DNA of 64,000 bases from Pseudooceanicola atlanticus (GTDB lineage Bacteria > Pseudomonadota > Alphaproteobacteria > Rhodobacterales > Rhodobacteraceae), in contig NZ_AQQX01000004.1 in assembly GCF_000768315.1 (NCBI RefSeq), forward strand, positions 1-64,000. Direction: 5' to 3'. The notes beneath the pieces were generated by a model. The model worked only from the letters and a program-made list of their open reading frames with translations. It ran no database searches and was not told the origin of the DNA. The translations under genes and the position numbers were made by a program. Shown here piece by piece: positions 1-24,480 of the stretch (position 1 is the first letter of the stretch; the number at the start of each line of letters is the position of its first letter).

Positions 1-437
1 GTTGGCGCAGACTCTACATTAAGGTGAGGGATTTCGCGGGGGGCAGGTCAAGGGCCTTAGGCGCTGTCCAGAACAGCGCAGGTCGGCCCAATGCAGACTT
101 TCATCGGTCGACATGTGGCCGCAGTGCAGCTTCACTAGCCCGGACATTCGAAGCGTCCCGCAGCATTTGTGACAGGGCAAGGTCGGAAATCAGAGGTTCG
201 CGGCGCAGCGGCAATTTTAGAGGTGCCCCGCATTGATAGGGCAATCTACACATGCTCTGCTATGTGCGCCGAGGATCACGCCCCCATCCTCGGCAGCAGA
301 CTCCCTTTTGACAAGTTGGTCTGCGAAGGCCTTGTGTGTAAGCAGTCAGCGCTACACGACCATCAAATACCGAAGCATTAAAAGGCGAGCGACGCACATG
401 CCATTTCCGTCGGGCGTGGCCTCCACCGTCAATACAA
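1..437. other. gene-free flank downstream of the RT operon
   Basis: No convincing protein-coding gene is visible here; the short open frames on both strands have no recognisable motif and mostly lack a ribosome site. On the minus strand, just after the RT operon stop, the segment contains several inverted repeats and an ACACACA run (see the ncRNA candidate at 265-385). The left part (1-240) shows nothing I can name. Confidence 0.5.
265..385 (-). ncRNA. candidate structured ncRNA of the DRT3-like system
   Basis: Seen on the minus strand, reading away from the drt3b-like stop: a hairpin with a UUCG loop (366-379, five-pair stem), the motif ACACACA (333-339), an inverted repeat GCAGAC/GTCTGC (319-324 with 296-301) and a perfect eight-pair hairpin CCGAGGAT/ATCCTCGG (269-293). 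DRT3 systems are known to need a ncRNA, and my recollection is that one RT copies an ACACAC template from it. Assigning this stretch as that RNA is inference: I have no covariance support, no promoter is obvious, and I am not certain on which side of the genes the RNA lies in described systems. Confidence 0.35.
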
Positions 438-2609
438 CTAACGCGACCGTTTCTTGTCAAGCTCCAAGGTCAAGTCAAAGCCTGACCAATCAATGAACCA
501 GTGCGTATGGCATTGGCCAAGGTCGCGCATGAAACTCGGTGACTTACCCGCCGCCTTTGACAAGGTTTGTTTTTCTACTGGCTTAAGATGCGGACAGGTC
601 GCCAAGTCTAAAAAGGTTATGAGTAGCTCTGCGTCTTTCTGCAGGTCGTGCTGTCGATTTCTGAAACGCTCAGCGAGTGCATCAATCAGACCCTTTTTGA
701 AATTAGAATATCTGGCCTGATTCCTGATGTATAGAAGGCATACATCAGCTGTAAACATATCAATGTCTGAAAAATTTATTTGCCCCGAGGCCCTGTCAAA
801 CTCGGCGCCCAAAAAAAGGCATAACTGCTCTTGATTGTACCGATAGTATCTCCCCAACTTCATGTTGGCCAAAATCAAGTAAAGAGTTTCGATTCGCCTC
901 GTTTCGGAGCCGCTGTACTTTCGTAGACACCAATGCAGGTTGTCCGCAATAGATTTGAGAACCCTTTCCTTGGTGTCAAACCCAACAATGATCTCATGTA
1001 TCTCATCTACAATCATGCAGATTAATCGAGTAAGTCTAACTGAAAAATTCACCTTGGGGGTGGTTGCAAAAACGAAAAAGCTGAATTCTATCAGGTTTTG
1101 AAGATTCCTGCTTAAATCCACTTCTGACAGCGGCATATCGGTTATACCGTTGTCCTGAAATTCTTTCATCGCCCTCTTGTGGGAGCGCAGCCATGAGGCA
1201 GTTCTCCACTCAAGGTTGGAAAGCGTGAAGTTTAGCAGACTTGCGTAGGTTGTGCTTGTAGACTTTATAGCGGCCTTGAATTCAACGATTAGCTTATTGG
1301 CGCTAATTTTGTGATCTGGATAGCGAATATCTCCGGCGGATTCTTGTGCATAATCTTTCTGCTCTGGATTTAGATGGCTGCTGAGAATCTCCTTAATCTT
1401 ATTTTTTGCTATAGTCTCGTTTGTTATGATGGGTTTCTCAATCGTGTGCTGCTTCTCTCGGCTAAGAGACAGTTTGAAATCTCGTAGCTGCGCCTCCAAA
1501 GTGTCGCAAAACAGCTTTGATGTGGCCTCTGAGTTGTAAAAGAGGAAATAGTCATCGACATATCGAAAAGCCTCGTAGTCCTTCCTGTGAAACGCACTTT
1601 GCCCACTTACGCCCATTCTCAACTGCTTTTCGACTTCTCCATCTACCTTTTGAAGAATTAGCTCAGCAAAAATTCTAGATATTTCCGGCCCAATGATGAT
1701 GCCATTTGTCTCGCCATCATTCATGTTTTGCATCAACTTATCAATTTTCGAGGCGAAAGTGCGCGAAGCGGTCGTATCATCCCTAGTGATCGCGTCCTTC
1801 TCAACTTCTTTTGACAGTATTGCCCAGGAGATGGAGTGCGAATAGATGCTATCGAAGCACCGACTGATGTCGAGCTTTAGAAGCTTGTCAAATTTTTTCT
1901 CGGCATTGTGGTATAGCTTGGATTCATAGAAGCGATAAACGTTGCTGTACCTGTGATATCTAAAGAAGGACCCTAGGTGGTCGTACTCTTTGTGGCTTTC
2001 CTCTAAGAAGTGAAAGCCCTGAGCCATTCTTTTTCCGTGAATTAGGTCATTGAAGTAAATTAATTGTGCTACAGAATCTGGCTTTCGGATGGAAAAAGGG
2101 CTGATTCCGGAGTAATAAAGTATATCTGAAGAGTATTTTCCGTAAAACTCAGACGCTAAAAATTGATTGACCGGGTGAGGTACGGATAGCCGTCGGAAGG
2201 ACGCCTCTTTGTGGCTAATGTCAAATGAGTACGCGCGGTTCCGACTGGAATAGTCTTTTAGCTTTATACGTCGCATTTTTAAGGTGTCGCCGTTTCGGGT
2301 GAAGCGGCCGCCAGACGTACTTCCACCGTCCACAGCCACTTCAAAATGCTCCACGCGGTTAACGTCATCGATCCCTTGAAGCACAAAGGAAATAGCGGAA
2401 TCATATTTTGAGTTGTTCGCTGACCACTCGATGTAGGTTTTGGTTTTCTTACTACCAGGAACTGCATGAGTTACTAGCTTGGGATTGGTTTTCTGAAGGA
2501 AGTCGAAGAAACCTCCAGAATTGAAACCTGGCGGCACCTCAAATGGTAGGAGCTCGGTGAGAACCGGTCGAAAGCTCCTCGACTTGGACAGACTAACCTT
2601 TTTCCGCAT
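438..2609 (-). CDS. drt3b: Drt3b-like antiviral reverse transcriptase
   Basis: A 723-residue RT-family protein, second gene of a two-RT operon. RT motif A is LKLDISRCFDSI (Asp near residue 247), motif B is GIIIGPEISRIFAEL (about 303-316), and the catalytic motif C is RYVDD (about 349-353), followed by LSLSREKQ as motif D. The long C-terminal region of about 300 residues has no recognised domain. I chose ATG at 2609 because GGAG lies about ten bases upstream; a TTG at 2627 is also possible. The start overlaps the end of the upstream RT frame by 17 bases, so translation is probably coupled. Two adjacent RTs of about 450 and 700 residues fit the defence system DRT3 (UG3 + UG8 classes). The gene appears intact. 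Its AT-rich codon use differs sharply from the core genes to its right, which indicates horizontal acquisition. The exact class assignment needs a profile search. Confidence 0.7.
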   Translation of the reverse strand: MRKKVSLSKSRSFRPVLTELLPFEVPPGFNSGGFFDFLQKTNPKLVTHAVPGSKKTKTYIEWSANNSKYDSAISFVLQGIDDVNRVEHFEVAVDGGSTSGGRFTRNGDTLKMRRIKLKDYSSRNRAYSFDISHKEASFRRLSVPHPVNQFLASEFYGKYSSDILYYSGISPFSIRKPDSVAQLIYFNDLIHGKRMAQGFHFLEESHKEYDHLGSFFRYHRYSNVYRFYESKLYHNAEKKFDKLLKLDISRCFDSIYSHSISWAILSKEVEKDAITRDDTTASRTFASKIDKLMQNMNDGETNGIIIGPEISRIFAELILQKVDGEVEKQLRMGVSGQSAFHRKDYEAFRYVDDYFLFYNSEATSKLFCDTLEAQLRDFKLSLSREKQHTIEKPIITNETIAKNKIKEILSSHLNPEQKDYAQESAGDIRYPDHKISANKLIVEFKAAIKSTSTTYASLLNFTLSNLEWRTASWLRSHKRAMKEFQDNGITDMPLSEVDLSRNLQNLIEFSFFVFATTPKVNFSVRLTRLICMIVDEIHEIIVGFDTKERVLKSIADNLHWCLRKYSGSETRRIETLYLILANMKLGRYYRYNQEQLCLFLGAEFDRASGQINFSDIDMFTADVCLLYIRNQARYSNFKKGLIDALAERFRNRQHDLQKDAELLITFLDLATCPHLKPVEKQTLSKAAGKSPSFMRDLGQCHTHWFIDWSGFDLTLELDKKRSR

Positions 2610-3975
2610 AGGACCACGCTCCAACAATTTTATTCATTTCATCGCGGTCGCCTGGCTTCTTATGCCGGTTAAACCTGACCATTCGACGACGCATGAAGCC
2701 GATTTCAAAAGAAAGCTTATTGACCTCTGATTTTAGTGTGGGTTTTGCGGAAAGCTCTCTCCAAGCCCAAAGCGACAGAATCATGTCCAAGTCCCTCAAC
2801 TGAGTGAGGTCGGTTAAAATCGGATTTGAGAAATATATCCCAGTATGCGCATTGCGCTTGGCGTTGCTCAGTTGAGTGTTTCCTGTTAGAAAGCGAAGTC
2901 TAGCAAGAAGCGACCTATATGCTCGCTTTTCATTTATGGATTTGTCCCTCTGGTATTCTTTCAGGGTCCTAATCAGCCTGGTGCGGTATCGGTCCATCTT
3001 TTTTTGAGAGAGTGCGACTTTAGAATTTTCTCCGCTACAGTGAAACACGCAACCAAGTTACTCTAAATTTGGCCTCTTCGAGAGAGAGACCTCGTATGTC
3101 TTGCCCTCATTTACCTCCAGACCAAAGGAAATAATGACCTGAGAGACACTGGGAAGGCGTGGTTGACTGTCTAAGTGTTTAGGTTGTGCAAAGAATACAA
3201 TAATGTCGTCAACATATCTTGCGTAAAAGCACACGCCTTCTAGCTGCTTTATTTTTTCATCTAAGTCGCGCATGTAGAGCTCAGCTAAATCCGCGCTCAC
3301 GTTCACTCCTCTCGGGATGCCCTTGTCCGTTCCGCCATTTGCAGTCGCATAGGTCTCTAGTACTTGCTTCAATATTCTTCTAGATTTTATACTCAAAAGG
3401 GAATCAAATTCAAGCTTCTCGATTAGCTTTTCTTGTGGGGCAGACTCATAAAAGGTCTTAATGTCCGCTCGGACAATATGATACTTGTATCCGTCCATTG
3501 CCATATTTAGGATTTGCGAGCATATTGCACTCCCGCTCGATTGCTTCACCCTATAAATTCGCCGGATGTTAATCGCAGTCTGCTTTAGTGCATAGTATTC
3601 GTCAGGCGTCTCTCCATACGCATAAGTCGGCTTTCCATTCGCGAAACCTGAGTGGAGTGATACGGAGAAAGATTTGCTTGATATTATTTCAGATATTCGT
3701 TGAAGTTCGTGAGTAAGAAGCTCACGCTTTCTTTTCTTTTCTGTCTTTAGGTTTTTGAATAGATTTCTAGCTTGCTCCTTGCGGGCCGCGGTTAGCTTTG
3801 AGCTTTGGGAGCTGTGCTTTTTGTAAAAATTCCTAATCGCACGTGCCTTCCGGTCAATTCTTAGGTTGGCCCGGTGAACGTTTGGGAAAAAGTCCTTATC
3901 TTTATTGACGCCGTTGCGGTTGTCTAAGTCATTGACTTCGAGAAAGCTTTCTGCAGAGTAAGCTTGTTGGCTCAC
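2593..3975 (-). pseudogene. drt3a: Drt3a-like reverse transcriptase, interrupted by one in-frame TAA
   Basis: Reading from GTG at 3975, the first part encodes 305 residues with RT motif A RADIKTFYES (Asp 171), motif B GIPRGVNVSADLAELYM (about 219-235), motif C YARYVDD (YVDD 254-257) and motif D GLEVNEGKT. A TAA at 3058-3060 then stops the frame. The same frame continues without another stop for about 154 codons to 2593 and encodes a typical RT thumb and C-terminal part (LLARLRFLTGNT, then GIYFSN). Around the stop the protein reads NLE*LGCVF, where relatives have a Tyr (EYLG-type motif), so one base change from TAT or TAC explains it. Full length would be 459 codons plus stop. It is the first gene of the operon with the Drt3b-like RT. 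Alternatives are a sequencing error, a recent nonsense mutation or stop readthrough. No clear Shine-Dalgarno precedes the GTG. Confidence 0.7.
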
Positions 3976-4805: not shown

Positions 4806-4820
4806 GAACACGTGTAGAAC
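4806..4820. promoter_or_regulatory. LexA operator (SOS box) of lexA
   Basis: GAAC-ACGTGTA-GAAC is an exact GAAC-N7-GAAC, the reverse complement of the alphaproteobacterial SOS box GTTC-N7-GTTC. It lies 34 bases before the lexA start, where autorepression is expected. A second exact box precedes uvrA. Confidence 0.85.
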
Positions 4821-4854: not shown

Positions 4855-5556
4855 GTGCTGACCAAGAAGCAACTAGACCTGCTGGAATTCATCCACAAAC
4901 GGGTGCAGCGCGACGGCGTGCCCCCCTCTTTCGACGAGATGAAGGAAGCCCTTGATCTGCGGTCGAAATCCGGTATCCACAGGCTGATCACGGCGCTCGA
5001 GGAACGCGGTTTCATCCGTCGTCTCGCGCACCGCGCCCGTGCCATCGAGATCGTGAAACTGCCAGAAAGCCTCGGCGGTGACGCGAACGGCTTTGTTCCC
5101 CGCGTCATCGAAGGCGGCGCACCCGATCCCGAACCCGCGCTCAGCCCCTCCCTCCCCGTCGAACCTGTCCACGCGCTCGAGCTTCCGGTTATGGGGCGTA
5201 TCGCCGCCGGTGTCCCGATCGAGGCGATCAATCAGGTGTCGCATCACGTCGCCGTGCCGGGCTCCATGCTGGCGGGCAACGGCAATCACTTCGCGCTTGA
5301 GGTCCGGGGCGACTCGATGATTGATGCGGGGATCAATGACGGGGACGTGGTCGTCATCCGTGAAACCCAGACTGCTGATAACGGTGACATCGTCGTGGCC
5401 CTCGTCGAAGACCAGGAGGCGACACTTAAACGCTTCTTCCGCCGCACCGGCCAGGTCGAACTGGTCGCAGCGAACCCTGCCTACGAAACCCGTGTCCTGC
5501 CCGCCGACAAGGTGAAGGTGCAGGGCCGTCTGGTGGGCCTGATCCGCACCTACTGA
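4855..5556 (+). CDS. lexA: LexA repressor
   Basis: This 233-residue protein is the SOS repressor and a self-cleaving serine peptidase. The N-terminal winged helix contains [18 protein letters not shown] (about 23-40), typical of alphaproteobacterial LexA. The cleavage site is Ala118-Gly119 in GRIAAGVP, the catalytic Ser is Ser154 in RGDSM and the Lys is Lys192 in ATLKRF. I chose GTG at 4855 because it gives the conserved MLTKKQ start and AGGGAG lies eight bases upstream; GTG at 4849 is a weaker alternative. Starts further upstream would place the operator and the phased repeats inside the coding region. Its end overlaps the convergent comEC by seven bases. Autoregulation is supported by the box at 4806-4820. 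Confidence 0.96.
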
Positions 5557-24312: not shown

Positions 24313-24450
24313 GGCATGCACAACACGCATGTCAGCCTTGCCCCGCCTGCGTCATTTTGGTTCTTGAACGACTCTAAACCGGGGCTTATGTGCACCCGTG
24401 ACGGTGATGCTGCCTAGTGTTTCATCACCTTCATACCTCCCTGTTGGACT

Positions 24451-24480
24451 TGGCCGGACTTTTGTCCGGCCATTTTTTTT
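24451..24480 (+). terminator. strong intrinsic terminator
   Basis: TGGCCGGAC (24451-24459) pairs perfectly with GTCCGGCCA (24464-24472) around TTTT and is followed by eight T residues. It lies 139 bases after the lysR stop, with no gene between, so it either ends a long 3' UTR or an independent small RNA from about 24360. Confidence 0.9.

Follow-up and report, generated by a model that had tools for sequence, protein, structure and literature searches.

The DRT3 anti-phage system of Escherichia coli consists of two reverse transcriptases (RTs), Drt3a (UG3) and Drt3b (UG8), and a non-coding RNA (ncRNA) (PMC13174585; PDB 9z6y/9z6z, and 26cz by residue numbering). According to PMC13174585, Drt3a of a working system makes poly(dTdG) by copying the ACACAC in the ncRNA, and Drt3b makes poly(dCdA) without a nucleic-acid template, primed from its own C-terminal tyrosine. 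The two products anneal into double-stranded DNA that is linked to abortive infection. The same paper gives the priming residue of the E. coli DRT3b as Y666, the last residue but one, and reports that both poly(dCdA) and defence were lost with Y666F. Here we describe a DRT3 operon in a stretch of 64,000 nucleotides from Pseudooceanicola atlanticus (contig NZ_AQQX01000004.1, positions 1 to 64,000 of the forward strand; hereafter the window), which begins at the first base of assembly contig C34.

We read this locus, with a probability of about 0.85, as a degenerate DRT3 system in the gap between moeA and lexA, probably acquired by transfer and recently inactivated by one in-frame stop codon in each RT gene, with an ncRNA that keeps its template and structure. 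It shares with the E. coli system the gene order, the RT motifs, YVDD in both RTs, the nucleotide-gating residues E22, R71 and R241, and a downstream ncRNA with ACACAC. Unlike the E. coli system, the window has a TAA inside drt3a, a TAG three codons ahead of the drt3b end, and no encoded priming tyrosine. Because this tyrosine is not encoded, we class the locus as a degenerate copy by descent and not as a working DRT3. Its features are as follows.

3975-438, minus strand: DRT3 operon, drt3a then drt3b, two RT genes
3061..3975, minus strand: 5′ piece of drt3a, 305 codons, GTG start at 3975, RT palm with YVDD
3058..3060, minus strand: in-frame TAA within drt3a, directly 5′ of the LG of the conserved (F/Y)LG motif
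2593..3057, minus strand: 3′ remainder of drt3a, C-terminal part, open to the natural stop at 2593-2595
438..2609, minus strand: drt3b, ATG at 2609, 723 codons, TAG at 438-440
429..437, minus strand: codons behind the TAG, Leu, Tyr and TGA, the normal family end; Tyr corresponds to the priming Y666
267..426, minus strand: DRT3 ncRNA, covariance-model match, 14.1 bits, E 0.044
334..339, minus strand: ACACAC template motif, 89 nt past the natural drt3b end

The first-pass annotation of the window had proposed a DRT3 pair, Drt3a and Drt3b, encoded by two minus-strand RT genes, each with YVDD and without a maturase or endonuclease domain. Both genes were recovered at its coordinates with YVDD in each (3975-2593 and 2609-438), and Pfam found RVT_1 alone, in the first drt3a piece and in Drt3b, and no domain in the second drt3a piece. 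The pairing was borne out by profile searches. Against the Drt3a profile NF041747 (cut-off 200), the first drt3a piece alone scored 219.7 bits, and 317.9 bits were reached when the search passed over the TAA; the second piece (2596-3048) scored 98.9 bits. The second protein scored 582 bits against the Drt3b profile NF041748 (cut-off 350). With the PADLOC profiles, the first piece scored 206.8 bits for Drt3a (PDLC03768) and 81.0 for the next non-Drt3a class, the second piece scored 102 bits for Drt3a without matching any non-Drt3a class, and Drt3b scored 555.2 bits as compared to 162.8 for the next class, Drt6. In the PDB, the second protein matched 26cz and 9z6y (named Drt3b) best, and the first piece matched 9z6y (named Drt3a). 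The 26cz record is named just RNA-directed DNA polymerase; its identification with the E. coli DRT3b of PMC13174585 rests on E22, R71 and R241, which align given a 108-residue tag.

These searches also bear on whether the genes might belong to another RT class, such as a group II intron, a retron or another UG group. The annotation had named a better match to such a class as the outcome that would count against DRT3, and it did not occur. There were weak matches to group II maturases (59.0 and 42.7 bits, cut-off 300) and to the St85 retron (38.7 bits, cut-off 235), all below their family cut-offs as opposed to the Drt3a and Drt3b scores, and the profile scores thus refute an identity as maturase or retron RT. 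The gene order, the C-terminal tyrosine of the relatives and the ncRNA are all consistent with DRT3, and any other RT class has a negligible probability. Assignment to DRT3 (Drt3a of UG3 and Drt3b of UG8) is therefore supported at the level of sequence, far ahead of the other classes.

The two genes were compared with 93 other DRT3 loci: loci of genomes of the same family and genus (L002-L005, L030), plasmid loci (L022-L029, the best 8 of 164 matching records) and further genome loci (L034-L113, the best 80 of 356 relatives from an alignment scan). The 93 loci are a non-random sample, since they were drawn as the best matches of scans. The window itself (L001), L021 (the same locus as L004), and L006-L020 and L031-L033 (RT matches below the Drt3b cut-off) were left out of the counts. 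None of the nine matches of a phage scan covered more than 80% of the query, and none of nine candidates from a first scan of genome contigs was confirmed. An arrangement with drt3a directly 5′ of drt3b on one strand is common to the window and L002, L003, L022 and L024-L029; in the window, the two genes overlap by 17 bases.

Drt3a is not uninterrupted in the window. The first RT, described in the annotation as having roughly 450 residues, is not one open frame: its 305 codons are followed by the TAA at 3058-3060 and then, in an unchanged frame, by 154 sense codons. At the position of the TAA, all 11 aligned relatives carry a residue instead of a stop and keep (F/Y)LG (matched by eye). The first Drt3a product of the window terminates before this motif and the C-terminal part downstream of it. 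The first in-frame GTG behind the TAA is at 3048, 9 bases past the stop.

The second RT does have close to the 720 residues first estimated (723 codons) and ends early, three codons ahead of the usual family end, so that the encoded Drt3b is without the priming tyrosine. The frame ends in KKRSR-stop-LY-stop in the window as compared to KKR(T/A)REVY-stop in most of the sister clade described below. No tyrosine that might substitute for Y666 was found within the last 70 encoded Drt3b residues. In an alignment to 26cz and relatives, the equivalents of E22, R71, D182, F187, R241 (numbering of PMC13174585) and YVDD were kept; counted from the ATG at 2609, they are E24, R139, D247, F252, R312 and YVDD 350-353. 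A tyrosine is among the last five Drt3b residues in 92 of the 93 other loci, the exception being L005, where drt3b is cut short, and none of the 93 has a stop just ahead of a terminal tyrosine. In the same bacterial family, catalytic motif C reads YVDN instead of YVDD in two Drt3b proteins (L003:1450-3450, plus strand; L005:1480-2394, minus strand), while the Drt3a of both loci retain YVDD.

A truncated Drt3a that ends before (F/Y)LG would make no strand, and a Drt3b three residues short, having lost its priming tyrosine, would make none either. Neither DNA strand is expected because Drt3a is cut before (F/Y)LG and Drt3b is without its priming tyrosine, and DRT3 of the window is probably inactive. 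The working defence operon of the first-pass annotation is thus unsupported, with an in-frame stop in each RT gene and the Drt3b priming tyrosine not encoded. Its family call stands; the intact two-RT operon does not, and it mentioned neither the two stops nor the downstream RNA.

A search of the window at Rfam gathering thresholds gave no DRT3 RNA, and for this reason we built our own covariance model, from ten sister-clade RNAs with the window left out. Its single match in the 64 kb was at 426-267 (minus strand). In a model search over 39 sources, 31 matched, with the window at E 0.28 and 30th of the 31; L003 and L024-L030, eight more distant DRT3 sources, were without a match. The E value, the rank and the eight unmatched sources make the score weak by itself. 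Its position and covariation add to it. In the alignment of the window RNA, which was fitted to the model and leans towards pairing, 18 of the 20 model pairs are standard; 11 pairs are altered on both sides relative to the commonest pair of the clade (one of them a tie), and eight are pair types absent from the ten clade members. Among 30 distinct ncRNA rows, 91.4% of the cells pair, as compared to 34-48% when the partners are slid. ACACAC was found within 330 nt past drt3b in 92 of the 93 other loci (the miss is L005), at a median distance of 41 nt (range, 29-221). Assignment of 426-267 as the DRT3 ncRNA is supported by its position and covariation despite the weak score.

The retained RNA could be taken to mean that the system works despite its stops. 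Drt3a might be made in two assembling pieces by a re-start at GTG 3048, and Drt3b might be completed by read-through of the TAG or might prime without its tail; in the read-through form, the amber codon before the priming tail would be a translational on/off switch. The second drt3a piece does keep a start codon just behind the stop and still matches its family, L-Y-stop is retained behind the TAG, and the ncRNA keeps template and structure. Against this stand the conservation of the tyrosine in 92 of 93 loci with a stop before it in none, the loss of activity with Y666F in E. coli (PMC13174585), and the lack of a suppressor anticodon among the 43 transfer RNA (tRNA) genes found in this genome, an incomplete list. 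The list lacks tRNA-Tyr, and an additional pattern search, with two matches of which one locus was checked by ARAGORN, did not recover a gene for it. We recognised no stop context known to be leaky. Function in spite of the stops is thus very improbable.

Help from a second copy was considered as well. The genome has no second Drt3b or Drt3a over the cut-off and no other Drt3b match at all. The next match to the Drt3a profile, an RT-like frame at G000:C22:540-1337 (L190; 56.3 bits, in a 644-residue open frame), is under the cut-off, and a second DRT3 copy able to use the ncRNA was rejected. Compensation is probably absent.

Apart from the stops, the two proteins look largely constrained. Near-invariant columns were changed in the window at 4 of 78 in Drt3b (rank 8 of 90, median 1) and at 2 of 26 in Drt3a (rank 7 of 85, median 0), and most members with more changed columns are divergent and have no stop. 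The tree distance from the clade node was 0.94 for the Drt3b of the window and 0.66-0.87 for nine relatives, and 0.91 for its Drt3a and 0.76-0.96 for eight relatives. Advanced decay is unsupported by these checks, and the loss looks recent because little other decay is visible. There may be some mild relaxation of constraint.

Several observations weigh against a recently inactivated DRT3 as the explanation. More conserved columns are changed in the window than in the median locus, and its Drt3b distance is the longest among the ten clade members. The two genes show no insertion or deletion, the frame is clean behind each stop, and two stops without a frameshift are a slightly unusual form of decay. 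The ncRNA score is weak alone (E 0.044, or 0.28 in the larger search), and 3.4% of the shuffled versions of the stretch contain ACACAC. No tRNA-Tyr is on the list of 43 genes, which means that the search or the assembly missed at least one gene, and a suppressor could be missed too. Finally, sequencing or assembly errors could account for one or both stops, the operon being intact in the living organism: the stops are read from the assembled sequence, and drt3b ends 438 bases from the contig end. That both stops are isolated with clean frames behind them, and that the conserved residues are mostly retained, would suit such errors. Two independent errors, each creating an in-frame stop, are unlikely, and the contig, with lexA and core genes on it, is not a stray fragment. 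We regard this explanation as improbable, although less so than function despite the stops, and retain recent inactivation of a DRT3 operon.

The genomic setting points to acquisition. Its features are as follows.

1..50: end of an IS3-type element present in many copies, where the contig breaks off; recurs at 15 other places of the genome
51..4783: island segment with no blastn match to the surroundings of lexA in other species of the genus
4855..5556, plus strand: lexA, the right flank and part of the core genome; start codon set by similarity

In 500-base windows, the GC content is 0.42-0.47 across the DRT3 genes and 0.56-0.71 from 4501 on (windows up to 12000), in agreement with the foreign base composition of the initial description, which had also placed lexA beside the operon correctly. 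Presence in related genomes, which it had proposed to compare, was examined around lexA, found in 21 of the 22 genus genomes searched (the window's genome included). The comparison covered 20 lexA neighbourhoods from other species, L115-L134, which reach about 1.5 kb to both sides of the gene except for a shorter one; the DRT3 side had no match in them, and similarity to the window started no earlier than 4784. In L115, lexA is preceded by moeA (so named by reading its sequence), the counterpart of which in the window's genome is C45:737-1759, close to the start of that contig. By eye, the starts of both contigs share the tip GGGGGCAGGTCA; the next four bases are AGGG at one start and its complement CCCT at the other, the pattern expected for one copy of an insertion sequence (IS) with a 4-base target duplication separating the contigs. 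At least eight of the 15 other copies of the first 50 bases are at contig ends; an internal copy, 88% identical, lies beside an HTH_Tnp_1 transposase open reading frame (ORF), from which we read the element as IS3-type. On account of the shared contig tips, the IS copies and the boundary of the lexA neighbourhoods, we propose that the island probably spans from about C45:733, across the IS, to about 4783 of the window. Horizontal transfer is the probable route by which DRT3 reached this site between moeA and lexA.

Between the IS and moeA, the remaining half of the island holds a 95-residue ORF without a Pfam match (L185:77-364, minus strand; G000:C45). Before lexA, in the interval that separates it from the divergent drt3a, a GTTC-N7-GTTC site, the form of the alphaproteobacterial LexA box, lies at 4806-4820 (minus strand); the 64 kb contain three matches, with 2.08 expected by chance. 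Elsewhere in the window, the sole Rfam gathering match was SorX, a small RNA of singlet-oxygen resistance (24393-24477, plus strand; 49.9 bits, cut-off 46.6).

The closest relatives found form a mostly alphaproteobacterial sister clade (Drt3b identity 37-42%, clade support 0.999), including Zymomonas mobilis pZYMOP02 (L022), Jannaschia seosinensis (L041), Tritonibacter mobilis (L036), a metagenome-assembled genome of Methylocystaceae (L034) and others. Their ncRNA has the layout of the window (P1, double hairpin stem, terminal hairpin). Unlike the window, L022, L034-L038, L041 and L057, for each of which both genes were covered, are free of in-frame stops.

Within the same bacterial family, the window, G302 and G386 are alike in having damaged RT genes in their DRT3 loci. 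In G302 (L004/L021), drt3b has a frame change as well as a TAA, and drt3a has a TGA; the ncRNA and drt3b end of this damaged operon (L004) resemble those of L035. In G386 (L005), drt3b is cut after 304 codons, near a putative transposase-like ORF. Other damaged loci are L023, on an E. coli plasmid, with drt3b in two frames, and L082, with drt3a in two pieces. The drt3a match is partial or missing in L043, L058, L066, L075, L040, L093 and L102, some of which may be explained by contig ends. Drt3b was over the cut-off in 5 of 394 family genomes sampled and in 2 of 22 genus genomes; the other genus carrier, G406, has a divergent locus (L030) on a different contig from its lexA.

According to PMC13174585, the E. 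coli DRT3 could not be maintained in strains lacking RecBCD. Among the six DRT3 genomes, addA was over the cut-off in all and one full-length stretch in five, including that of the window. Loss of AddA, of the RecBCD-type helicase-nuclease, therefore does not explain the breakage in the window and was rejected as its cause; this conclusion covers AddA, not AddB. In G386, the genome with the cut drt3b, addA appears split (model positions 1-895 in one piece, 926-1138 in the other; G386:C5:2560835-2564076) and may be damaged. A literature search on DRT3 together with Rhodobacter listed no paper.

The window contributes a divergent DRT3 whose ncRNA covaries; the catalytic and gating residues checked are kept, and a stop lies just before the priming tyrosine. 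In this bacterial family, DRT3 is patchy (5 of 394 genomes) and can be damaged, with three of the six loci over the cut-off in the family and genus samples broken. This would fit a costly system, in line with the failure to keep the E. coli DRT3 in strains without RecBCD (PMC13174585).

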